Origin: Sandaracinus sp.
Lineage (GTDB): Bacteria > Myxococcota_A > Polyangia > Polyangiales > Houyiibacteriaceae
Reading direction: 5' to 3'
NCBI GenBank assembly: GCA_002699025.1
Contig: PABA01000185.1
Span: 1-57,435 of the forward strand
DNA: 57,435 nucleotides
Shown: positions 43,760 to 54,698 of the stretch, in pieces
How the letters are laid out: the number at the start of each line of letters is the position of its first letter
Numbering within the stretch: position 1 is the stretch's first letter
Position numbers and translations under genes: made by a program
The notes under the pieces: model-generated
What the model saw: the letters and a program-made list of their open reading frames with translations, nothing else
The model's database searches: none
What the model was told of the DNA's origin: nothing

Positions 43760-44095
43760 TCAGGTGCGGGGGGCCTCGATGCGCCACGCGAGGCGGCGCG
43801 AGTCCGGCCCGCCGCGGGGCTCTCCGGGGTAGCGGAGGAAGCCCCGGCCCTCGAGCTGCGCGACGAGCCGCTCGGCGCGGACGTCGGAGCAGCCGAGGTG
43901 CGCGGCCAGCGCGTCGCGGAACGCCGTGCGTCCGAGCACGTAGCCGCGCGGGGGACGCCCCTCGAAGCGCGCCTGGAGCGCGCCGGCGAGCTCGGCGAGA
44001 TCGAGCGGCGCGTCCTCCGGCGAGGCGTCCGCTCCCGCGCCCATCTCGACGCGGCGGCTCTCGACGAAGCGCGCGGGGGCGTCCTTCTCGCTCAC
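43760..44095 (-). CDS. small winged-helix-like protein downstream of dps
   Basis: 111 aa. The C-terminal half, TAFRDALAAHLGCSDVRAER then LVAQLEGRGFLRY, reads as a winged helix (helix, turn, recognition helix, wing). It aligns by eye with the 92-aa protein encoded at 44827 (SFAHQLVERLGISYKRARQL, then VRSLERGGYLR). It overlaps the dps stop by 4 bp, so the two are co-translated. It could bind DNA or regulate dps; an N-terminal acidic stretch precedes the fold. Confidence 0.7.
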   Translation of the reverse strand: MSEKDAPARFVESRRVEMGAGADASPEDAPLDLAELAGALQARFEGRPPRGYVLGRTAFRDALAAHLGCSDVRAERLVAQLEGRGFLRYPGEPRGGPDSRRLAWRIEAPRT

Positions 44096-44664
44096 GAGGC
44101 GGCCGCTCCGATGCGCGGCTTCGCGGCCGAGCCGTTGGCCGACTTCGGCTCGCGCTTCGCGTCCGCGGCGCTCTCGGCGGTGCCGGTCATGGACTGGGCC
44201 TGGAGCATCCAGGCCTGCTCCTCGAGGCCGGCGAGGATCTCGAGCAGGAGGTCCTCACTCGCCGGGTCGAGGTCGGCGAGACGCTCGGCGCGCTCGCGGA
44301 CGTGCTTGGCGGCGAGCAAGACGCGCTCGGCCATGGCCTCGGCCACCACCATGTCGGGCTGGAAGCCGCTCGGACACTGGGGCAGGCCGCTGTGGTCGCT
44401 GATGTACCCCGCCGTCCCGTCGGGCGCGACGCCGAGCGCCGTGCAGCGCTCCGCGAGGTCGTCGCTCCAGCCGCGGTAGGTGTCGACGAGCTCGTCGAGG
44501 AACTCGTGGATGCTCTGGAAGCGGGGACCGACGATGTTCCAGTGGAGCTGCTTGCCCTGGAGCGCGAGGTCGATCATCTCGGCCATCGAGGCGTGGAGCT
44601 CGACCACGACGGCGTCGCGGGTGGGGGTGGCGAGGGTGGTCTGAAAACGAGGGTTGGGTGTCAT
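44092..44664 (-). CDS. dps: Dps-family DNA-binding ferritin-like protein
   Basis: 190 aa. Ferroxidase motif spread over two subunits: His in KQLHWNIVGPRFQSIHEFLD, with the Asp/Glu of HEFLDELVD. Dps dodecamers store iron, remove peroxide and coat DNA in stress or stationary phase. A C-terminal tail of about 25 residues rich in Lys/Ala/Ser (after MTGTAESAAD) may provide DNA contact. The start at 44664 follows GGGAGGG. A -24/-12-like element ends 15 nt before the ATG. Confidence 0.92.
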   Translation of the reverse strand: MTPNPRFQTTLATPTRDAVVVELHASMAEMIDLALQGKQLHWNIVGPRFQSIHEFLDELVDTYRGWSDDLAERCTALGVAPDGTAGYISDHSGLPQCPSGFQPDMVVAEAMAERVLLAAKHVRERAERLADLDPASEDLLLEILAGLEEQAWMLQAQSMTGTAESAADAKREPKSANGSAAKPRIGAAAS

Positions 44665-44677
44665 GCCCTCCCTACGC

Positions 44678-44693
44678 TGCAACGCCCGATCCA
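44678..44693 (-). promoter_or_regulatory. -24/-12 promoter of dps
   Basis: Minus strand TGGATCG-GGCG-TTGCA: perfect -12, two mismatches in -24. The flanks (to GCGTAGGGAGGG) closely resemble those of the lipoprotein promoter at 47293-47308. The C of the -12 is 15 nt from the ATG. Confidence 0.5.
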
Positions 44694-44727
44694 GGTCGCC
44701 GCGCCGCTCCGCCGACCGCGCCCCACC

Positions 44728-44762
44728 GAGGCGCGATGCCTCGCTTCGGGCCGATTCGCCAC
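44728..44762. promoter_or_regulatory. activator-site candidates between dps and the divergent gene
   Basis: GAGGC-GCGAT-GCCTC (44728-44742) is a perfect 5-5-5 inverted repeat placed 35 bp upstream of the dps -24. GGGCC-GATTC-GCCAC (44748-44762) is a one-mismatch relative ending 34 bp before the -24 of the divergent winged-helix-like gene. Confidence 0.5.
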
Positions 44763-44795
44763 GACTCGTCCCCGCGCGTCTCGCGCCACGCGTGC

Positions 44796-44811
44796 TGGCA
44801 CGTGTTTCGCT
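44796..44811 (+). promoter_or_regulatory. -24/-12 promoter of the winged-helix-like gene
   Basis: TGGCACG-TGTT-TCGCT: perfect -24 and a one-mismatch -12. The C of the -12 is 17 nt before the ATG at 44827, the same distance as at 27964 and 47277. Confidence 0.55.
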
Positions 44812-44826
44812 GTTTCCTCGCGCGTC

Positions 44827-45105
44827 ATGGACGTCGAGTATCACCGCGCCGCCGACCCGCGGGTGGTGCACCGGCGCGGCCGCCTCGGCCTGCGCCGCTT
44901 CGCCGCGCTCCTCCAAGAGCGCTTCGGCGAGCACTTCCGCGGCGGCCGCCGCAAGGCCCGCTCCTCTTTCGCGCACCAGCTCGTCGAGCGCCTGGGCATC
45001 TCCTACAAGCGCGCGCGTCAGCTGGTCCGCAGCCTCGAACGGGGCGGCTACCTGCGCCCGGAGCGCCGCGGCGTTCGCATCGCGCGAGCGCCCACGAGGA
45101 GCTGA
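44827..45105 (+). CDS. small winged-helix-like basic protein
   Basis: 92 aa, strongly basic. A helix-turn-helix-like core (SSFAHQLVERLGISYKRARQ, then LVRSLERGGYLRPERRG) matches the paralogue downstream of dps. The ATG at 44827 is supported by the promoter position. The last 13-15 codons (PERRGVRIARAPTRS) are part of a DNA segment repeated five more times after the stop codon. It probably binds nucleic acid; partner and target are unknown. Confidence 0.7.
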   Translation: MDVEYHRAADPRVVHRRGRLGLRRFAALLQERFGEHFRGGRRKARSSFAHQLVERLGISYKRARQLVRSLERGGYLRPERRGVRIARAPTRS

Positions 45106-45548: not shown

Positions 45549-46715
45549 TCAGTAGCGCAGCGTCGCGGCGATGGGCTGGTCCGCGGGCATCTGCTCCGGG
45601 TCGAGGACGTGCACCATCGCGCCCATCTCCCAGGCCTTCGTCGCCGCCTCGCCGAAGAGCTCGCGCTCGCTCCGCGGAGGGCTCTCGTCGAAGCGCACCT
45701 CGCGCGTCCCGGGCTCCCAGCGCCCGAAGCGCCTCGCCCCGCGCGTCAGGAAGAAGTGCGCGACGCGCCCGTCCATGGCCGCTCGCACGACCTCCGCGGC
45801 GTCCGTCGCCACGGCGTCCCGCGGCGCCTCCTCGAGCCGCCGGCGCGGCTCGTCGCCTTCGGCCTGCGCGTACGCCTCCCAGGCTTCGCGCCGGAGCGCC
45901 TCGACGCTCTCGAAGGCGCTCGGCTCCTTCGCGACGACGGCGACGATGCGATCGGCGAGGTGGCTCGCGTCCCGGTAGAGGGCGGCGAGGTGCTCCTGGC
46001 CGACCAGCACGATCGGACGCGCGTCGTCGCCGAGGGCGGCCTTCACGCGGCGGTCGAGCTCGCGGAAGTACTTGCGGGCCTCGCGCTTGCGCTCCTCGGG
46101 CGCGCCCTCGCCGTGGCCGTGGAAGGCGGCCGCGCTCGAGGGGTCCCCGGGGCGCGGGGAGGTGCTGTGCGCGTTGAGCTGGGGCTCGCTCAGCTCGTGG
46201 CCGAGCACGTCCTCGAGGGGCCGGTCGATGTCGGCCTCCTCCGGGACGATGCCCCAGCGCGTCGCGAGGTGGAGGGCGCCACCGCCGAGCCCGATCGCGA
46301 GCACGTGGTAGCTCTCCCCGGGCACGTAGCGAAGGAGCGGCGCGACGTGGAAGCGGGCGCCCACGAGCGCGAGATCCTCGGTGGGCTCGGGCAGCACGAT
46401 CACGCGCGTGAAGCAGCCCCCCGCGCCGCTTTCGTCCCGCGCGACGAAGGCCGCGACGGAGGCCTCGGGGCGCGTGCCGAGCGCCTCCCGCAGGGGCGTC
46501 TCGAGCGCGTCCAGGAGCGACGCGGCGCCGGGCGTCCCGACGTCCTCGAGCGCCTCCCGGGCGCGCTCCATGGCGGCGCGCGCCACCAGCCGGGGCGCCT
46601 CGAGGGGCTCGGGCGGGGGCGCGACGTAGAGCGAGAGGCAGGGGCCGGGCGCGTGGTGCGCCACGAGCTCCCGGAGGTGGTTCTCGGTGACGGGGTGGAG
46701 GCGGCGTTCGAACAT
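45549..46715 (-). CDS. baeRF-family (eRF1-like) protein
   Basis: 388 aa. Matches the bacterial archaeo-eukaryotic release-factor-like families (baeRF3/7 type): the central VPGESYHVLAIGLGGGALHL block, then ERKREARKYFRELDRRVKAA, PIVLVGQEHLAALYRDASHL, and the C-terminal Rossmann-like block with MVHVLDPEQMPADQPIAATL. These proteins resemble eRF1/Pelota and are suspected to act on stalled ribosomes or in stress, though function is unproven. Met at 46715 (MFERRLHP) is chosen because a -24/-12-like element ends 15 nt before it; ATG 46745 would lie on top of the promoter. Confidence 0.8.
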   Translation of the reverse strand: MFERRLHPVTENHLRELVAHHAPGPCLSLYVAPPPEPLEAPRLVARAAMERAREALEDVGTPGAASLLDALETPLREALGTRPEASVAAFVARDESGAGGCFTRVIVLPEPTEDLALVGARFHVAPLLRYVPGESYHVLAIGLGGGALHLATRWGIVPEEADIDRPLEDVLGHELSEPQLNAHSTSPRPGDPSSAAAFHGHGEGAPEERKREARKYFRELDRRVKAALGDDARPIVLVGQEHLAALYRDASHLADRIVAVVAKEPSAFESVEALRREAWEAYAQAEGDEPRRRLEEAPRDAVATDAAEVVRAAMDGRVAHFFLTRGARRFGRWEPGTREVRFDESPPRSERELFGEAATKAWEMGAMVHVLDPEQMPADQPIAATLRY

Positions 46716-46728
46716 CGTCGTGGAAGGG

Positions 46729-46744
46729 TGCACGCCGCGTTCCA
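46729..46744 (-). promoter_or_regulatory. -24/-12 promoter of the baeRF gene
   Basis: Minus strand TGGAACG-CGGC-GTGCA, with two mismatches and both GG and GC kept. The C of the -12 is 15 nt from the ATG at 46715. Confidence 0.5.
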
Positions 46745-46777
46745 CGGCGGAGGGGGGCGCGGGCGAGGGGAGGTGTC

Positions 46778-47393: not shown

Positions 47394-47705
47394 TCATTCG
47401 CTCGGATCGGCGGGCACGTGCTCCTCGGGGGGAGGCAGCGGCTCGGTGCGCTCGGGCGCGACGATGGCCTCCTCGATGGTCTCCGGATCGGCCTCCACGT
47501 CGACGGCCAGCTCGGCCTGCTTCTCGGCGACCTCCTCGGCGATCTCCTCGTCGAGGGGACCCCGATCGAGCGCCTCGGCGCGGGCTTCGGCCGTCTCCTC
47601 GGCGAGGTCGCCGGCCACGTCGGCGGCGTCGTCCTCGCAGCCGAGGGCGAGCGAGAGGGCGACGCCGAGGATGAAGAAGGGGCGCAAGGTATTCGTTCGG
47701 TTCAT
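47394..47705 (-). CDS. small acidic lipoprotein
   Basis: 103 aa. Lipobox LGC (Cys23, in SLALGCEDD), then a highly acidic helical segment rich in Glu/Ala (EETAEARAEALDRGPLDEEI). No family is recognised; the composition suggests an extended or coiled anchor in the envelope. It is divergent from the VTT-amidoligase gene, and their putative -24/-12 promoters lie back to back. Confidence 0.75.
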   Translation of the reverse strand: MNRTNTLRPFFILGVALSLALGCEDDAADVAGDLAEETAEARAEALDRGPLDEEIAEEVAEKQAELAVDVEADPETIEEAIVAPERTEPLPPPEEHVPADPSE

Positions 47706-47718
47706 GGGGGAGCGGTCG

Positions 47719-47734
47719 TGCAAGCGAGGTTCCA
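47719..47734 (-). promoter_or_regulatory. -24/-12 promoter of the acidic lipoprotein gene
   Basis: Minus strand TGGAACC-TCGC-TTGCA: perfect -12, two mismatches in -24. The C of the -12 is 15 nt from the ATG at 47705. Only a half-site (GCGGC, 47770-47774) is seen at the activator-site distance. Confidence 0.45.
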
Positions 47735-47770
47735 TCCGCCTGGCGCTCTCGAGGGGCGCGACGCCGATCG

Positions 47771-47786
47771 CGGCACGGTAAGTGCA
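47771..47786 (+). promoter_or_regulatory. -24/-12 promoter of the VTT-amidoligase gene
   Basis: CGGCACG-GTAA-GTGCA, two mismatches. The C of the -12 is 15 nt before the ATG at 47800, which favours that start over the GTG at 47782. No full activator site is evident. Confidence 0.4.
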
Positions 47787-47799
47787 ACCTCGCCAGCGC

Positions 47800-49488
47800 A
47801 TGGCCTCGAGCGCCTCTCCCCATCGCGACCTCCTCCACGCGCGCCAGTCCGGCGGCCGCGCGCCGCTCACCCGCTGGCTGGGCCTGGCGGTCTTCGCGGC
47901 GGCCGCGGTGATCGTCGCGCTCTACGGCGAGGCGATCTTCGTGGCCTTCGACGCAGCCCGCGCATCCCTGGGCCCCTGGCGCATCCCCGTCGCCGCGGTG
48001 CTCGTCGCCCTCGCCGTCGTCCTCGCGGTCCCGGGCAGCGTCGCCTTCGCCGCCGTCGGCATGAGCCTCGGCATGGGCGAGGGCTTCCTCGCGGCCTTCC
48101 TCGGCGCCGGCGCCGGCTCGCTCGTCGCCTACGAGCTCGCGAGACACCTCCGGCCGAGCCGCCTCGAGCGCTGGCTCCGCGCGCGCCCCCGCCTGACGCG
48201 CTTCGGGGCGGTGCTCCGCGAGCACGGCACGCTCCTCATGGCCGCGCTCCGCCTCTCGCCCTTCGCCCCGCTCGCCGCCGTCAACTACGGGGCCGGCATG
48301 CTCCGCGTGCGCCGGCGCGACGTGCTCGTCACGCTCCCCGCGCAGGCGCTCCCGGTCGCCCTCTACGTCGGCGCCGGCGCCCTCGTGCGCGGCAGCTGGA
48401 GCGGCGAGCTCGAGCTCCTCGAGAGCCTGACGGCCGCCACCGGCCTCCTGATGTCCGGCGCGGCGCTCTTCCTCGCCACGCGCGCGGCTCGCCGGAGCCT
48501 CTTCGCGCCCCTCGTGCCGGCCGAGCCGCCGCTCCGCCTCGCGCCGAACGCGCCGCCGAAGGATCGGCGGGTCGGCGTGGAGATCGAGCTGCTCGGCCTC
48601 GACGCGGGCGAGGTGGCGGAGCTCGTCGCCCAGACCCTCGGCGGCCAGACGCGGCGCACGGACCCGCTCGAGCTCGAGGTCGACACGCCCCTCGGCCCCT
48701 TCCGCGTCGAGCGCGACTCCGAGCCCCTCAAGCGCGCGCAGGCCGCCGACGAGGGCGACGCGCCCCGGACCCTGCCCCAAGAGCTCGGCGACCGCCTCCT
48801 GCTCGACGTCGTCGAGCGCTGGGTGCCCTGCGAGATCGTCAGCCCGCCCCTCCGCGAGGCCGACCTCGACCAGCTCGACGCGCTCGTCGACGCGCTCCGG
48901 CGCCGGGGCGGCGAGGGCACGGGCTCCTCGCTCCTCCACGCCCTCGGCGTCCACTTCAACCCGGAGCTCGAGGCCCCGAGCGCCGAGGCCATCCTGCGCC
49001 ACCTCCGCGCCTTCTTCCTCCTCCGCGACTGGCTCCGCCGCGTCGGCGGCACGGACCTCTCGCGGCGCCTGAGCCCCTACATCGGCAAGCACCCCCACCG
49101 CTACGTCGCCCGTGTCCTCGACCCGAGCTACGCGCCCGACCTCGAGACGCTCATCGACGACTACCTCGAGGCCAACCCGACGCGGAACCGGGACCTCGAC
49201 ATGCTCCCGCTCTTCGCGCACCTCGACGAGGCGCGCGTGCGCGCGGCGGTCGGCGAGGACACGAAGGTGCAAGCCCGACCGACCTTCCACTTCCGCCTCC
49301 CGAACAGCGAGGTCGACGAGCCCGGCTGGTCCATCGGCGAGGAGTGGGCGCGCTGGCGCCTCGTCGAGGAGCTCGCCGCGGACGAGGCGCGGCTCGGCCG
49401 CTGGATGCGCGACTGGCGCGAGGCCCTCGACCACGGGGAGGCCTTCGAGCGCTGGGTCGACGAGGTCGAGCGGCGGGTGGAGCGATGA
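47800..49488 (+). CDS. fusion of VTT/DedA-like membrane domain and amidoligase
   Basis: 562 aa. Residues about 25-215 form a VTT (TVP38/DedA) domain: several spans, the GMGEGFLAAFLGAGAGSLVA glycine motif and the RLSPFAPLAAVNYGAGML signature. From about residue 245 it is an amidoligase-type enzyme of the glutamine-synthetase fold: GVEIELLGLD (metal-binding Glu pair), LGVHFNPE, YIGKHPHRY, PTRNRDLDMLPLFAHLDE and ARPTFHFRLPNS. Amidoligases with a class-I amidotransferase neighbour are predicted to make or modify gamma-glutamyl/isopeptide-linked compounds. The fusion to a membrane domain is unusual and places the reaction at the inner membrane. It overlaps the amidotransferase gene by 4 bp. Confidence 0.82.
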   Translation: MASSASPHRDLLHARQSGGRAPLTRWLGLAVFAAAAVIVALYGEAIFVAFDAARASLGPWRIPVAAVLVALAVVLAVPGSVAFAAVGMSLGMGEGFLAAFLGAGAGSLVAYELARHLRPSRLERWLRARPRLTRFGAVLREHGTLLMAALRLSPFAPLAAVNYGAGMLRVRRRDVLVTLPAQALPVALYVGAGALVRGSWSGELELLESLTAATGLLMSGAALFLATRAARRSLFAPLVPAEPPLRLAPNAPPKDRRVGVEIELLGLDAGEVAELVAQTLGGQTRRTDPLELEVDTPLGPFRVERDSEPLKRAQAADEGDAPRTLPQELGDRLLLDVVERWVPCEIVSPPLREADLDQLDALVDALRRRGGEGTGSSLLHALGVHFNPELEAPSAEAILRHLRAFFLLRDWLRRVGGTDLSRRLSPYIGKHPHRYVARVLDPSYAPDLETLIDDYLEANPTRNRDLDMLPLFAHLDEARVRAAVGEDTKVQARPTFHFRLPNSEVDEPGWSIGEEWARWRLVEELAADEARLGRWMRDWREALDHGEAFERWVDEVERRVER

Positions 49489-50264
49489 GCCCCCGAGCCA
49501 CCCGCGCCCCCCGCGTCGCCGTGACCGGCCCCCGCCGCGGCAACCCGGCGCCCTGGTTGGCGACGCGCCGCTGCCTCGCGCGGGCCGGCGCGCGGGCCAT
49601 CCGCTGGAGGGGGCGGGCCGCGCCAGAGGGCCCGATCGACGCGCTCGTCCTCGGCGGCGGCTCGCACGTCCACCCGGCGCGCTACGGCGCGACGCCCCTC
49701 GACGGCCCCGGCGCCTACGACCCGGACCGGGACGCCTTCGAGCTCCGCGCCATCGACGCCGCGCTCCGCGCCGGGCTCCCGATCCTCGGCATCTGCCGCG
49801 GCATGCAGCTGCTCCACGTGCGCTTCGGCGGGAAGCTCAGCCAGCGCGCCTTCGAAGGCCGTCGCCGCCCGCGCCGGACCCTCTTCGCGCGGAGGCCCGT
49901 GACCATCCGCGAGGGCACGAAGCTCGCGCGGGTGGTCGGCCCGGAGCCCCTCGCCGTGAACACGCTGCACTCGCAGGCCATCGAGGGCGTCGCCGCGCCC
50001 CTGCGCATCACGGCCCGCGACCGCGACGGGATCCCCCAGGCGCTCGAGCATCCCGAGGCCCCCTTCTTGCTCGGCGTCCAGTGGCACCCGGAGTACCTCG
50101 GCCGCCGGCCGCGCCATCAGGCGCTCTTCACCGCGCTCGTCAGGGCTGCGGGATCCCGTTCGATGGCCGGGCAGGCAGCGCCACCCGGAACGTGGTCCCT
50201 GCCGACTCCGTCGACTCGACGCGCACGCGCCCGCCGTGCGCCTCGACGACGCGCGCGACGATGA
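49485..50264 (+). CDS. class-I glutamine amidotransferase / gamma-glutamyl hydrolase (C26) like PuuD
   Basis: 259 aa. Nucleophile Cys in LGICRGMQLLHV, His-Glu in VQWHPEYLG, and the VLGGGSHVHP turn typical of PuuD-like peptidase C26 members. Translationally coupled to the amidoligase (ATGA), with which it probably forms a ligase/hydrolase or amide-supply pair. The last 125 bp overlap the 3' end of the convergent histidine kinase gene; the resulting tail (from about GSRSMAGQ) is Arg/Pro-rich and may be a run-on. Confidence 0.85.
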   Translation: MSPRATRAPRVAVTGPRRGNPAPWLATRRCLARAGARAIRWRGRAAPEGPIDALVLGGGSHVHPARYGATPLDGPGAYDPDRDAFELRAIDAALRAGLPILGICRGMQLLHVRFGGKLSQRAFEGRRRPRRTLFARRPVTIREGTKLARVVGPEPLAVNTLHSQAIEGVAAPLRITARDRDGIPQALEHPEAPFLLGVQWHPEYLGRRPRHQALFTALVRAAGSRSMAGQAAPPGTWSLPTPSTRRARARRAPRRRARR

Positions 50265-51660
50265 AGAGGCCCAGGCCGAGGCTGGCGCGCCCGCCCTCGG
50301 CCGGGTCGCCTTGGCGGAGCGGCTCGAAGAGGCGCGGAAGGAGCGCCTCCGGGATCGGCTCCCCCTCGTTGTGCACCTCGATGACGAGCTCGCCCCCCTC
50401 GCGCGCGCATCGCACGGTCACCGGGCGCCCCTCGGCGCCGTGACGGAGCGCGTTGCTGATGAGGTTGTCGACGACCTGAGCCAGCCGCGTCGCGTCCACC
50501 TCCGCGCGCGCAGGCCCCTCGTGCTCGAAGCGGATCTCCGCCCCCGGCGCCGTCAGACGCGCCTGCTCCACGGCGTCCTTCACGACGGCCACGGCGTCCT
50601 GCCGCTTCCGGTGCACGGGGATGCCGCTCCCGAGGTGAGCGCGGGTGTAGTCGAGCAGGTCGTGCACGAGCCGCTTGGCGCGCTGGGCCGAGCGCCGCAC
50701 GCGCCCGAGCACGTCCTGGCCGTCCGCGTCGAGATCCTCGGCGAGCAGGCTCGTGCCCATGAGGATCGCGCCGAGCGGGCCCTTCAGGTCGTGGCTGACG
50801 ATGCCGATGAGCTGCTCCTCGAACTCGAGGCGCAGCCGGGCCTCCTCGAGCAGGTGCTGGCGTTCGGTCACGTCGACGGCGGTGCCGATGATTCGATGTC
50901 CGTCCCGGCTCCGGAGCCGGCTCCCGTCGAAGGCGACCCAGGCCTCCCGCTGGCGGAGGCCGCTCGTGAGGCCGAGGGGCGTCCCTTCGGCCTCGAGCTC
51001 GGCCAGCGCCTCGCGGAAGGCCTCGCCCTCGTCGAGGCGCGCGACCACGGCGTCGAGCGGGGCCCGTTCGGGGAGGTCGAGGAGCCGGCCGGCGCGCTCG
51101 GAGAGGAGGAGGTGCCCCCGCTCGAGCTCCCAGGTCCCGAGCCCGGCGGCCTCCGCGGCGAGCCGGAGCCGCTCCTCGCTCGCCCCGAGGGCCTGCTCGT
51201 AACGTTCGCGCTCGTGAAGCGCGCGCACGAGTTCGGCGTTCTGCCGCTGGAGCTCCTGGAGCGCCTCGTCCGGGTCGCTCGCGAGGAGCTCGAGGCGGAG
51301 CGCGGCGAGCTCGTCCGGAGGCGGCGGCCGCTCGGGGAGCGCCTTGCGGAGCCGCACCGACCCCGCGTCGACGTCGGCCCCATCGACGAGGCGGAGCGCC
51401 CCCTCGAGGGCCTCGTCGGGCTCGCCTCCCGGCCGCGCGTCGAAGCGGGCCTCCACGACCAGCGCCTGACCGTCGACCCCCATGAGGAGCCGCCCCTCGC
51501 CCCGATGATGGGCGTGCCGGGCGAGCTCGCTCGCGGCCGCGGCGAAGCGCGTGCGGTCCTGCGCGGACAGACCCAGGCGCTCGCCGAGCCGATGGGCGCG
51601 GCGGCGGGTGTACATGACGTCGGCGGGGGATTCGAGGTGGACCTCGAGGACGGGGGTCAT
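50140..51660 (-). CDS. PAS-domain sensor histidine kinase of the stressosome cluster
   Basis: 506 aa, soluble. Residues about 1-90 look like a degenerate RsbT/RsbW-type ATPase fold (HRLGERLGLSAQDRTRFAAA), followed by a coiled coil and a PAS domain ending GHRIIGTAVDVTERQ. The HisKA box is IVSHDLKGPLGAIL with the phospho-acceptor His. The HATPase part shows NLISNALRHGAEG (N box) and LGLGLFIV (G box). No partner response regulator adjoins; the orphan NtrC-type regulator at 40.5 kb is a candidate. It overlaps the upstream gene by 4 bp. Confidence 0.88.
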   Translation of the reverse strand: MTPVLEVHLESPADVMYTRRRAHRLGERLGLSAQDRTRFAAAASELARHAHHRGEGRLLMGVDGQALVVEARFDARPGGEPDEALEGALRLVDGADVDAGSVRLRKALPERPPPPDELAALRLELLASDPDEALQELQRQNAELVRALHERERYEQALGASEERLRLAAEAAGLGTWELERGHLLLSERAGRLLDLPERAPLDAVVARLDEGEAFREALAELEAEGTPLGLTSGLRQREAWVAFDGSRLRSRDGHRIIGTAVDVTERQHLLEEARLRLEFEEQLIGIVSHDLKGPLGAILMGTSLLAEDLDADGQDVLGRVRRSAQRAKRLVHDLLDYTRAHLGSGIPVHRKRQDAVAVVKDAVEQARLTAPGAEIRFEHEGPARAEVDATRLAQVVDNLISNALRHGAEGRPVTVRCAREGGELVIEVHNEGEPIPEALLPRLFEPLRQGDPAEGGRASLGLGLFIVARVVEAHGGRVRVESTESAGTTFRVALPARPSNGIPQP

Positions 51661-52694
51661 GGCGCGGTGGTGGAGAGCGGTTGAACGATCACGGTGGCGT
51701 CGTCGCGATCCTTCGCGGCGTCTCGATAGAGGATGCCCAATACCACGGGCGCGGCCAGCCGGACACGGCGCTCCGGGAGGTTCCAGCGCGAGTCGAGCCC
51801 GTCCGAGTGCATGACGAGCCAGCGCTCCTCGGGCGCGCGCTCGATGGTCTGCTCGTGGATGCTCGGGCGCCGGTCGCCGAGGAGCCCGTCGCGGCCGCCG
51901 AGCGAGCGCGAGCCGCCGGGGCGGAGGACCCGCGTCCGGATGTTGCCGACGCCGGCGTAGCGGATGAGGTCGCCCTCCAGGCGCGCGCAGGCCGCGACCG
52001 CCCCGCGCGTCCCGACGAGCGCCTCGTGGACCGCCCCCAGGACCGCCGCCGGGCCCCGGGCCGCGCAGGCCCGGTCGAAGACCGCGAGCGCCGCGCGCGC
52101 CGCCTCCTCCGCCTTGGCGCCGTGCCCGAGCCCGTCCACGACCAGCCAGCTGCGCGCCCCGCTCGGCTCCTCCACGAGGGCCCAGCCGTCCCCGCAGGGC
52201 TCCCCGCGCGTCGGCGGGGGCGCACGCCAGGGCCGGGCGAGCGCCGCCCAGGGCGCAGGCGGGTCCGCGCCGAGCTCGGCCGAGACCACCGTGCCCTCGC
52301 CCGCGTCGGTCGCGATGCCGACCCAGCTCGCGAGGCGCTGCACGGCGCCGAGGCCGTGACCGAGCGAGCCGGCGGTCGAGATCCCGTCCCGGAGCGCGGC
52401 GCGCACGTCGGCGATGCCGGGGCCGCGATCGACCGCGAGCACGCCCATGGAGCCCGGGCTCTCGCCCTGGCCATCCGTCCAGACGTGGAGCTCACCCCCG
52501 CCGGCATGCCGCCAGGCGTTCGACGCGAGCTCGGTCGCGACCAGCGCCGCCCGCTCCCGGCCGTCGATGTCCACACCGGCGCGCATGGCGACCTCGCGCG
52601 CCGCGTAGCGCGCCGCGGCCACCCCCGAGGCGTCCTCGATGCGCACCAGCGCGGCCGTGCGGCGGAGCGAGCTCCAGAGCCCGGCGCCACTCAT
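51657..52694 (-). CDS. RsbT/RsbW-type ATPase fused to SpoIIE/RsbX-type phosphatase
   Basis: 345 aa. Residues about 1-145: GHKL ATPase with ELASNAWRHAGGGEL (N box), DRGPGIAD (G1) and TAGSLGHGLGAVQRL. Residues about 165-340: PP2C-like phosphatase of the SpoIIE/RsbX group (SWLVVDGLGHGAKAEEA, GVGNIRTRV, MHSDGL), retaining the metal-binding Asp residues of the DGLGHG and SDG motifs. In stressosomes RsbX resets phosphorylated RsbR/RsbS. The fusion fits the RsbX position of an R-S-T-X module and is coupled to the histidine kinase. Confidence 0.88.
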   Translation of the reverse strand: MSGAGLWSSLRRTAALVRIEDASGVAAARYAAREVAMRAGVDIDGRERAALVATELASNAWRHAGGGELHVWTDGQGESPGSMGVLAVDRGPGIADVRAALRDGISTAGSLGHGLGAVQRLASWVGIATDAGEGTVVSAELGADPPAPWAALARPWRAPPPTRGEPCGDGWALVEEPSGARSWLVVDGLGHGAKAEEAARAALAVFDRACAARGPAAVLGAVHEALVGTRGAVAACARLEGDLIRYAGVGNIRTRVLRPGGSRSLGGRDGLLGDRRPSIHEQTIERAPEERWLVMHSDGLDSRWNLPERRVRLAAPVVLGILYRDAAKDRDDATVIVQPLSTTAP

Positions 52695-52788
52695 CGGCGC
52701 GGCCCCGCCGGAGCACCGACCGGACGCGAGCGAGGGGCCGGTCGAAGGAGGGCGGGGCGCGCGGAGGCGAGGTCTCCGGGGCGCGCGG

Positions 52789-52877
52789 TCACGAGCGCTT
52801 CCACACGACCACCGTCACACAGGTGCCCGTGCCTTTCCCACTCTCGAGGGAGAGCTCGCCCTCGAGCCGGCGCGCGC
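52789..52877 (-). pseudogene. duplicated 3' end of rsbT
   Basis: 89 bp immediately downstream of the rsbT stop repeat its last 29 codons or so in the same frame, including a stop codon. The remnant reads ARRLEGELSLESGKGTGTCV then TVVVWKRS-stop, against ARRLVDEFALESGKGTGTCV then TVIVWKRP-stop in rsbT. Divergence is about 10-15% at the DNA level. No start or ATPase core is present, so it cannot be functional. Confidence 0.8.
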
Positions 52878-53279
52878 TCACGGGCGCTTCCACACGATCA
52901 CCGTCACGCAGGTGCCCGTGCCTTTCCCACTCTCGAGGGCGAACTCGTCGACGAGCCGGCGCGCTCCCCCGAGCCCCACGCCCATGCTCCCGGCCGTCGA
53001 GAAACCGTCCCGGAGCGCCTCCTCGACGTCCTCGATGCCCCGGCCGTGGTCCCAGACGCGGAGGCGCACGCCCCGCCCCTCGACCAGCTCCACCTCCGCC
53101 TCGCCGCCGCCCCCATGCGTCAGGGCGTTGCGGGCGATCTCGCTGGCGGCCGTCAGCAGCTTCGTGCGGCGCACCGGATCGAGCCCCACGGCGTCCGCGG
53201 CGACCCCGAGCGCGCGACGCACGCGCACCAGGTCGTGGTGATGCGCGATGGCCAGCGTCGACTCGACTTCGTCCCGCAC
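52878..53279 (-). CDS. rsbT: RsbT-type switch kinase
   Basis: 133 aa GHKL-fold protein-serine/threonine kinase. N box SEIARNALTHGGGGE, G1 DHGRGIED, and STAGSMGVGLGGARRLVDEF, then ESGKGTGTCVTVIVWKR, the typical RsbT ending. In stressosomes RsbT phosphorylates RsbR and RsbS and is then released to an output protein. The GTG start at 53279 has GAGGAG 2 nt before it. It lies 23 bp after rsbS; a partial second copy of its 3' end follows it. Confidence 0.93.
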   Translation of the reverse strand: MRDEVESTLAIAHHHDLVRVRRALGVAADAVGLDPVRRTKLLTAASEIARNALTHGGGGEAEVELVEGRGVRLRVWDHGRGIEDVEEALRDGFSTAGSMGVGLGGARRLVDEFALESGKGTGTCVTVIVWKRP

Positions 53280-53302
53280 GGCTCCTCGCCCGACCGACTC
53301 CC

Positions 53303-53662
53303 TCAGCCGGGCGGCTCCAGACCCAGGGCCCGGAAGCCCCGATCGACGTTGAGCGCCGTCTCGATGCCGGGCAGATCCATGCCGAGCTCGACGAGCGTGA
53401 TGGCCACCGCCGGGCGCATCCCGACGAGGACGACGCGCGACCCCATGAGCCGCGCGAGCTGAGCGATGTGGCCGAGGACGCGTCCGATGAAGGTGTCGAC
53501 CACCTCGACGCCGGAGATGTCGATCAGGACGCCCTTCGGGTCGTGCTTGGCCACGGCGTCGGCGACGTCTCCGGCGAGGCGCTCGGCGAGCTGGTCGTGC
53601 AGGTCGACCTGGATGCTCACCATGAGCACGTCCCCGACGCGCAGGATCGGCACCGCCTCCAC
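53303..53662 (-). CDS. rsbS: RsbS-type STAS scaffold protein
   Basis: 119 aa single STAS domain. Strong RsbS signatures: VLIDISGVEVVDTFIGRVLG, GMRPAVAITLVELGMDLPGI and TALNVDRG. The residue phosphorylated by RsbT in Bacillus RsbS (Ser59) is Thr here (VDTFIGR). The GTG at 53662 is used, two bases after the rsbR stop, with GGGGGAGG upstream. It forms the stressosome core with RsbR and sequesters RsbT. Confidence 0.92.
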   Translation of the reverse strand: MEAVPILRVGDVLMVSIQVDLHDQLAERLAGDVADAVAKHDPKGVLIDISGVEVVDTFIGRVLGHIAQLARLMGSRVVLVGMRPAVAITLVELGMDLPGIETALNVDRGFRALGLEPPG

Positions 53663-53664
53663 GC

Positions 53665-54531
53665 TCAGGCCTCCCCCGTGGCCACGACCTTCCGGCCCCG
53701 ACGCGAGAAGGCGACCCGGAGCGCGCCGGCCATGGTGGAGCGCGACTCGACCTGACCGAGGTCGATGCCGAGCGTGACCATGGTCTGCGCGATCTGCGGG
53801 CGGATGCCCGAGATGATGCACTCGGCGCCGATGAGCCGGGCGGCGCGCATGGTGCGCACCAGGTGCTGCGCCGTGGCCGAGTCGACCGTCGGCACGCCGG
53901 TGATGTCGAGGATGGCCACGGAGGCCTCCTGGTCGACGATCTCCTGGAGGAGGACCTCCATCACCTGCTGCGTGCGCTGCGAGTCGAGCGTGCCGATGAG
54001 CGGGAGCGCCAGGATGCCCTCCCAGAGGGTCACCACCGGCGTGGAGAGCTCGAGCAGCTCCTCGCGCTGGCGGGCGATGACCTCCTCCTTCGCGCGGGCG
54101 TAGACCTGCGTCGTGTAGAGGCCGAGCCGATCCATGAGCCGGGTGGCGTCCCAGACCGCGTCGACGAGCTTCGCCGGATCCTCGCCGAGCTCCTTCTGCA
54201 GCGCTTCGAAGAGCGGGAGCTTGAAGAGGAGCAGGAACTCGGCGACCTCGTCCGGCTCGAAGCCGCGCTGGGCGCGCGAGCGGAAGAGGGCCGCCAAGAA
54301 GGCACGCATGCCCTCCCAGGGCTCGCCGTCGAGCGTGGCCTCCGGGTCGACCGCCCCCGAGCGCTCCAGCGATTCGCAGAGCTGCGAGACGAAGGCGCTC
54401 GACTCCTCGCGCACCTGCTCCGGGGCGAGGAGGTCGGCCCGGAAGAGCACCGACTCCGTCTGGAGCGATACCCATCGGTCGACGAGCTCCTCGCCCGCAC
54501 CGTTCAAGACCTCGACGAGCACGGACGTCAT
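53665..54531 (-). CDS. rsbR: RsbR-type stressosome sensor
   Basis: 288 aa. N-terminal helical, globin-like sensor domain (about residues 1-150, with GFEPDEVAEFLLLFKLPLFE) and C-terminal STAS domain (LDITGVPTVDSATAQHLVRT, GIRPQIAQTMVTLGIDL). The first RsbT target site (Thr171 in Bacillus) is Ser in VDSATA; the second (Thr205) is kept in IAQT. First gene of the rsbR-rsbS-rsbT-phosphatase-kinase cluster. The start at 54531 is the first Met of the family fold; a leader of about 140 nt follows the putative sigma-54 promoter. Confidence 0.92.
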   Translation of the reverse strand: MTSVLVEVLNGAGEELVDRWVSLQTESVLFRADLLAPEQVREESSAFVSQLCESLERSGAVDPEATLDGEPWEGMRAFLAALFRSRAQRGFEPDEVAEFLLLFKLPLFEALQKELGEDPAKLVDAVWDATRLMDRLGLYTTQVYARAKEEVIARQREELLELSTPVVTLWEGILALPLIGTLDSQRTQQVMEVLLQEIVDQEASVAILDITGVPTVDSATAQHLVRTMRAARLIGAECIISGIRPQIAQTMVTLGIDLGQVESRSTMAGALRVAFSRRGRKVVATGEA

Positions 54532-54682
54532 GGTCGGCGGGTGTAGCAGATGTTCGGTGGAGCCGAATACCCGAGGCGGGGGAACGCTCGGTTTCGTTCG
54601 CCGGGAGGGGGCCGCAGCGTGCGGCTCTGGCGAACGGCGCCGGGTGGGCAGGGTCGGGGGGCACCACGATGCGCCCGGACGC

Positions 54683-54698
54683 TGCAAGCCCGGTGCCC
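54683..54698 (-). promoter_or_regulatory. -24/-12 promoter of the stressosome operon
   Basis: Minus strand GGGCACC-GGGC-TTGCA: perfect -12 (TTGCA), two mismatches in the -24. The C of the -12 is 153 nt before the rsbR ATG, so unlike its relatives it would give an ordinary leader. Confidence 0.55.

Follow-up and report, generated by a model that had tools for sequence, protein, structure and literature searches.

A gene of Sandaracinus sp. joins a VTT membrane domain to an amidoligase and is followed by a gene for a hydrolase of the class-I amidotransferase fold. The question raised by this locus is which bond such a pair could make and cut, and why the ligase should be attached to a membrane protein. 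The locus lies in contig PABA01000185.1, whose whole analysed stretch of 57,435 nucleotides is referred to below as the window. The first-pass annotation of this DNA had described the fusion, the enzyme families, the coupling to the hydrolase, conserved Glu residues, a membrane link and a stress-type promoter; all of these stand except the promoter, and the lipid-linked or exported product that it suggested is a possibility.

The fused gene

The fused ORF (47782..49488, + strand) encodes a VTT domain of the DedA superfamily (COG0398-like) followed by Amidoligase_2, as identified by Pfam and by homologous fusions (L030, L031, L032). It contains no internal stops and comprises 562 aa from ATG 47800, the start taken in the first-pass annotation, or 568 aa from the alternative GTG 47782. 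The VTT domain (aa 83–200 of 568; 48028..48381, +) matches positions 1–122 of the 123 in PF09335 (E 5.1e-17). According to hydropathy, hydrophobic segments begin at about aa 20 of the ATG form; the last of them, together with an Arg/Pro-rich linker, precedes the amidoligase (48382..48558, +; sequence and hydropathy). The Amidoligase_2 domain (aa 260–525 of 568; 48559..49356, +) covers nearly the whole of PF12224 (positions 1–243 of 245; E 2.2e-57), with 195.2 bits against a curated cut-off of 22, and represents the sole Amidoligase_2 match found in the host genome.

A sequencing or assembly error, the danger to which the first-pass annotation had pointed, could have produced such a frame. It is ruled out by the frame being intact in four genomes and by a uniform GC3 (0.92–1.0 throughout the fused ORF, junction included). 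No sigma-70-like promoter was found in 47500–50400. In-frame GTG/ATG codons occur in or near the linker (48385, 48451 and 48514), and internal initiation of a separate amidoligase from such codons would be formally possible; nothing points to it.

Distribution and origin of the fusion

The fusion also occurs in three other genomes of the host's family (G008, G010 and G015), and therefore it is not an assembly error. The whole fused proteins of these genomes are 39–44% identical to the window protein, and their VTT parts are 33–37% identical to the window VTT. When 130 amidoligases are placed in a tree, the four fused ones group as a single clade (97 SH-aLRT), which would fit one fusion event. 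Amidoligase_2 is present in 21 of the 184 genomes of the host's order, and only 4 of these carry the fusion. In the order's other families (G035, G039, G054) the ligase is unfused and has C26 downstream; no VTT gene was found near these ligases in the stretch fetched. Further Amidoligase_2 copies in the order (e.g., L163–L166) belong to another subfamily, with neither C26 nor VTT within 1.5 kb.

Fold and conserved residues of the amidoligase domain

The amidoligase domain of the AF2 model mostly has pLDDT above 90. All 50 matches listed by VIA-align are glutamine synthetases (Z 12–12.9), the human enzyme being aligned at 3.2 A over 200 residues. With the whole model, the top Foldseek ranks went to YbdK, glutamine synthetase and plant glutamate-cysteine ligase; the E-values are weak (only 0.03) because the model includes the poorly predicted VTT part. 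As modelled, the amidoligase domain has a glutamine-synthetase-like fold.

Domain residues E18 and E20 (the E-x-E motif), D63, E102, R250, H254, R256 and E280 are invariant in an alignment of 43 sequences. Numbered from ATG 47800, the motif corresponds to E261 and E263 and the other invariant residues to D306, E345, R493, H497, R499 and E523; N387, E389, R462 and R464 are further conserved. Thus, the Glu residues called metal-binding in the first-pass annotation are conserved, their loss in homologues was not seen among the 43 sequences, and a role in metal binding would be in keeping with their place in the fold. By strand position, the invariant residues may correspond to those with which glutamine synthetase binds metal and substrate. 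Sequence profiles gave no usable alignment of the ligase to GlnA or YbdK, and hmmsearch against the PDB returned chance matches only. Since profiles fail to align these families, the proposed equivalences to glutamine synthetase are based on the fold and the order of motifs. ATP-dependent amide ligase activity is the most likely prediction for this domain. We know of no biochemistry for this Amidoligase_2 subfamily.

The C26 hydrolase

The next gene (49485..50264, +) encodes a PuuD-type Peptidase_C26 protein, a hydrolase of the class-I GATase fold (Pfam E 8.8e-44), and with it both enzyme families named in the first-pass annotation are recovered by Pfam. The stop of the fused gene and the start of the C26 gene form an ATGA overlap (49485–49488), and across the combined set C26 directly adjoins the amidoligase in 119 of 130 loci, which supports the coupling of the two. 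The catalytic residues Cys104, His201 and Glu203 are kept in 65/66, 63/63 and 63/63 aligned relatives, respectively. Among solved structures, the protein is closest to Lin1909, labelled 'probable glutamine amidotransferase' (7d4r and related entries), and to PuuD, which is among the best of those with a named function; E. coli PuuD is 38% identical over 167 aa. The curated PuuD model NF008471 gives 78.5 bits with the window protein and its cut-off of 266 is not reached; therefore, the protein is PuuD-like and not PuuD itself.

A true glutamine amidotransferase subunit could also occupy this position, feeding ammonia to the amidoligase, which would then amidate a carboxylate. The Cys-His-Glu triad, a match to the GATase model of Pfam (E 2.8e-17) and the strict adjacency of ligase and C26 genes are compatible with such a role. 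It nevertheless appears unlikely, as PuuD outranks TrpG/GuaA-type subunits by score, the NxLHxQ motif (159–164) is common to the window C26 and PuuD, and glutamine synthetases are able to use free ammonia.

At its end the C26 ORF overlaps, over 125 bp (50140–50264), the 3' end of a histidine kinase gene on the opposite strand. GC3 of the C26 frame falls to 0.72 in this segment, so either the true C-terminus is unusual or the stop is shifted.

Type and orientation of the VTT domain

An HMM built from the four fused VTT domains scored the E. coli DedA proteins in the order YdjZ (42.1 bits), YdjX (34.9), DedA (9.8), YqjA (4.8) and YqaA (4.4), with the COG0398 members far above COG0586-type DedA and YqjA. 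By these profile scores, the fused VTT is assigned to the YdjX/YdjZ/TVP38 proteins (COG0398 branch). In the AF2 model this part, which would be expected to hold the two reentrant helices of a VTT fold, is poor, mostly with pLDDT 45–65 from a shallow alignment. Membrane tethering of the ligase by the fused VTT follows from the anatomy of the protein. The positive charges of an Arg-rich stretch past the last hydrophobic segment suggest a cytosolic position of the enzyme, on the side where it would find ATP and glutamate.

Flippases of COG0586 (DedA/UptA type) carry acidic residues at the tip of the first reentrant segment and paired basic residues at the second (PMC10127716). By eye, the fused VTT has no acidic residue near VPGSVAFAAVGMSLG and a single Arg in LRLSPFAPL. 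The same survey describes bacterial COG0398 and COG1238 proteins as relatives of the eukaryotic scramblases TMEM41B and VMP1 without established function: for COG0398 phospholipid scrambling is proposed, only putatively in bacteria, and COG1238 is a proposed mover of uncharged or positively charged lipids. Both proposals would be compatible with an amine-bearing lipid or a lipophilic amine.

VTT genes beside amidoligase-C26 pairs

The scan of representative genomes gave at least 547 relatives of the amidoligase, and the best 80 of 547 were examined. The amidoligase-C26 pair is old and widespread. After C26, the next most recurrent family among downstream neighbours is a VTT protein. In many Gammaproteobacteria and one Desulfobacterales genome a YqaA-type gene of about 140–180 aa directly follows C26, and in Aquibaculum and Fodinicurvata a TVP38-type gene overlaps the C26 end. 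A TVP38-type gene directly upstream reproduces the order of the fusion in two loci (L157, with an ATGA overlap, and L204), and in Kordiimonas (L057) such a gene is divergent. The arrangements comprise the fusion, upstream VTT genes (L157, L204), downstream genes of the YqaA type, downstream genes of the TVP38 type (L051, L078) and the divergent gene of L057. In Rhodovibrionaceae, the amidoligase-C26-VTT triplet sits between trpE and trpG (L051 2413–12518; L078 2513–12891).

Separate genes, whose adjacency the first-pass annotation had suggested surveying, were counted in two unbiased samples. The ligase was present in 15 of 274 gammaproteobacterial genomes, 8 of these 15 having a VTT gene within 1.5 kb; in Alphaproteobacteria (385 genomes) the ligase was present in 25 and a VTT gene lay within the same distance in 3. 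Background density in 42 host genomes is 0.91 VTT genes per Mb, or 0.0027 expected per locus. Both samples together would be expected to contain about 0.11 VTT-adjacent loci; 11 of 40 were seen, with a binomial tail of about 1e-19 when the relatedness of the genomes is left uncorrected. Chance adjacency is ruled out by this background. On the tree of 130 amidoligases the VTT state changes at least 16 times, a count that may include losses. No other recurrent third partner was found, with no family in more than 4 of 83 neighbours.

Because VTT genes adjoin the amidoligase-C26 pair elsewhere far above chance, a functional link between the ligase and the VTT domain is supported, and with it the membrane connection already seen in the first-pass annotation. 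VTT is the recurrent third part of the amidoligase-C26 system, which is new here.

The VTT neighbour is absent within reach in 63 of 130 loci, and 34 more have too little flank to tell; with so many pairs lacking it, VTT is not obligatory in cis. The domain could then be a mere membrane anchor, or an incidental neighbour, that takes no part in the chemistry, and the fact that most pairs have no detectable VTT in cis is in line with this. Such a reading is very improbable, because in several lineages the linkage greatly exceeds background and it involves two VTT subfamilies in several arrangements.

Many VTT domains of the 42 host genomes reside in ORFs of about 690–770 aa, and these hosts may therefore commonly fuse VTT to other enzymes. 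As a raw tally, most amidoligase loci come from marine or saline hosts, but a link to halophily or osmolytes would be speculative.

YqaA, gshA and the surroundings of the gene

The separate downstream VTT proteins of Gammaproteobacteria have their best score with YqaA; that of L040 is 41% identical to the E. coli protein. E. coli has yqaA 72 bp upstream of the glutamate-cysteine ligase gene gshA, on the same strand (L146 4384–6441). A YqaA-type gene also adjoins gshA in 13 of 30 sampled GshA loci (L219–L248; GTDB order around Salinivibrio). One VTT subfamily thus neighbours two different glutamate ligases, Amidoligase_2 and GshA. A literature search for YqaA together with gshA found no paper.

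The stress-type promoter of the first-pass annotation was not upheld. The window contains 24 copies of the motif GGAAC-N15-19-TC, where 26.7 would be expected, and the copy at 47710–47733, the sole ECF-like site near the fused gene, faces away from it, towards a divergent lipoprotein gene. The latter (47394–47708, −) encodes a small acidic protein with a LALGC lipobox and has no Pfam match. Also on this side, a protein of the bacterial archaeo-eukaryotic release factor type (baeRF family 3) is encoded at 45549–46745 (−).

The setting within 10 kb of the fused gene includes STAS/RsbRD, anti-sigma-type and SpoIIE-like proteins, a histidine kinase and a Dps-type ferritin. The stressosome or partner-switching cluster (51657–54687, −) comprises RsbRD_N-STAS, STAS, HATPase_c_2 anti-sigma-type and HATPase_c_2/SpoIIE-like proteins, and the histidine kinase beside it (50140–51660) is encoded opposite to the C26 gene. 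A ferritin, a histidine kinase and a PP2C gene are also found near the fused gene of G010. As a raw count, 6 of 86 loci have a Dps/ferritin-like gene of one BLAST cluster no more than about 5.5 kb from the amidoligase (window 44095–44829, −; L031 3420–4454; L048 237–758; L049 1608–2114; L057 2127–3035; L098 5406–5915); PF00210 was checked by Pfam in three of these six genes (window, L031 and L098). Directly upstream of the pair in G054 (L035 6804–8162) is a phospholipase D/cardiolipin-synthase-like gene. Upstream in L034 are a CdsA-like cytidylyltransferase gene and a gene which by eye resembles that of glutamate dehydrogenase.

The system could belong to thiol metabolism or to oxidative or metal stress metabolism, with a gamma-glutamyl thiol or a protectant of this kind as the product of the ligase and the cargo of the VTT protein, in parallel to YqaA and GshA. 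The adjacency of yqaA and gshA, the ferritin genes near six amidoligase loci and the stressosome-like cluster of the window are consistent with this, as is the finding that the commonest fusion partners of COG0398 VTT domains are glutathione-reductase-like enzymes (PMC10127716). It remains quite improbable, since the 83 neighbours include no recurrent gene specific to cysteine or thiols, the promoter motif is at chance level and the PuuD-type partner points to amines.

Proposed function

The fused protein and its partner are probably a membrane-tethered ligase and hydrolase for gamma-glutamyl-type amides, working with a VTT translocator on an amine that is borne by the membrane or crosses it. 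This proposal starts from the observed domain identities, the glutamine-synthetase fold of the model, the intact catalytic residues, the conserved C26 operon and the recurrent VTT linkage, from which we infer the gamma-glutamyl chemistry, the cytosolic orientation and the role of VTT. In an ATP-dependent reaction, the ligase would link the amine to glutamate through its gamma-carboxyl, or to a similar carboxylate, and the PuuD-type hydrolase would cut the same kind of bond. The VTT domain would keep the ligase on the inner side of the membrane and could move the amine substrate, or the modified and perhaps lipid-borne product, across or within the bilayer.

Amidoligases are said, in Pfam and by Iyer and colleagues, to be associated with a GATase-like thiol peptidase in proteobacteria and with an AIG2-type cyclotransferase in fungi. 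Since each of these partners acts on gamma-glutamyl bonds, gamma-glutamyl chemistry is the first choice.

The main rival is a soluble amine (polyamine, ethanolamine or similar) that is imported, trapped as a gamma-glutamyl amide and released by C26, with no lipid product. The nearest relatives of C26 are PuuD-type hydrolases, and puuP-puuA-puuD of E. coli has the same make-up of transporter, ligase and hydrolase. This route is nonetheless rather unlikely: PuuB and PuuC do not recur beside the pair (DAO family in 3 of 83), and the best-known role of VTT proteins is that of lipid flippases or scramblases (PMC10127716). A full Puu-type putrescine pathway was also sought and not found, with no recurrent oxidase or dehydrogenase (PuuB/PuuC) among the 83 neighbours.

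The membrane-bound gamma-glutamyl reading can, tentatively, be taken further. The three-part system may perhaps put a glutamate-type amide on and off a membrane lipid or membrane-crossing amine, with VTT moving it between leaflets, and partnership with glutamate-amine ligases (Amidoligase_2, GshA) may be a general role of COG0398/COG1238 VTT proteins. Two puzzles, the substrate of Amidoligase_2/C26 and the function of COG0398/COG1238, would then point at each other. The fusion in one lineage together with repeated adjacency elsewhere provides a pairing that could be tested in cultured gammaproteobacteria (Spongiibacter, Zhongshania, Teredinibacter).

Comparison with known systems

The neighbourhood of amidoligase and GATase was reportedly already noted and predicted by Iyer, Aravind and colleagues in 2009. 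The system described here has the same ligase family and the same C26 partner as that pair of Amidoligase_2 and class-I GATase-like neighbour; unlike it, the window system has VTT fused, and some of its relatives have VTT adjacent. To our knowledge, a VTT partner of the amidoligase-C26 pair has not been reported, and a literature search for amidoligase together with a VTT domain or DedA found no paper.

COG0398 fusions are mainly with oxidoreductases, and 99% of COG1238 members are single-domain proteins, as summarized in the PMC10127716 survey; an amidoligase fusion is not mentioned in its account of such fusions.

The gamma-glutamyl-putrescine pathway of PuuA and PuuD, with the importer PuuP, likewise combines a ligase of the glutamine synthetase fold with a C26 hydrolase. 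The window ligase differs in belonging to another family of this fold, and VTT stands where E. coli has a permease.

The yqaA-gshA pair of Enterobacterales resembles the system in placing a YqaA-type VTT gene beside a ligase that joins glutamate to an amine or thiol, whereas GshA belongs to another ligase family and the E. coli pair is without a C26 gene. This linkage suggests that the pairing of VTT proteins with glutamate ligases may extend into E. coli.
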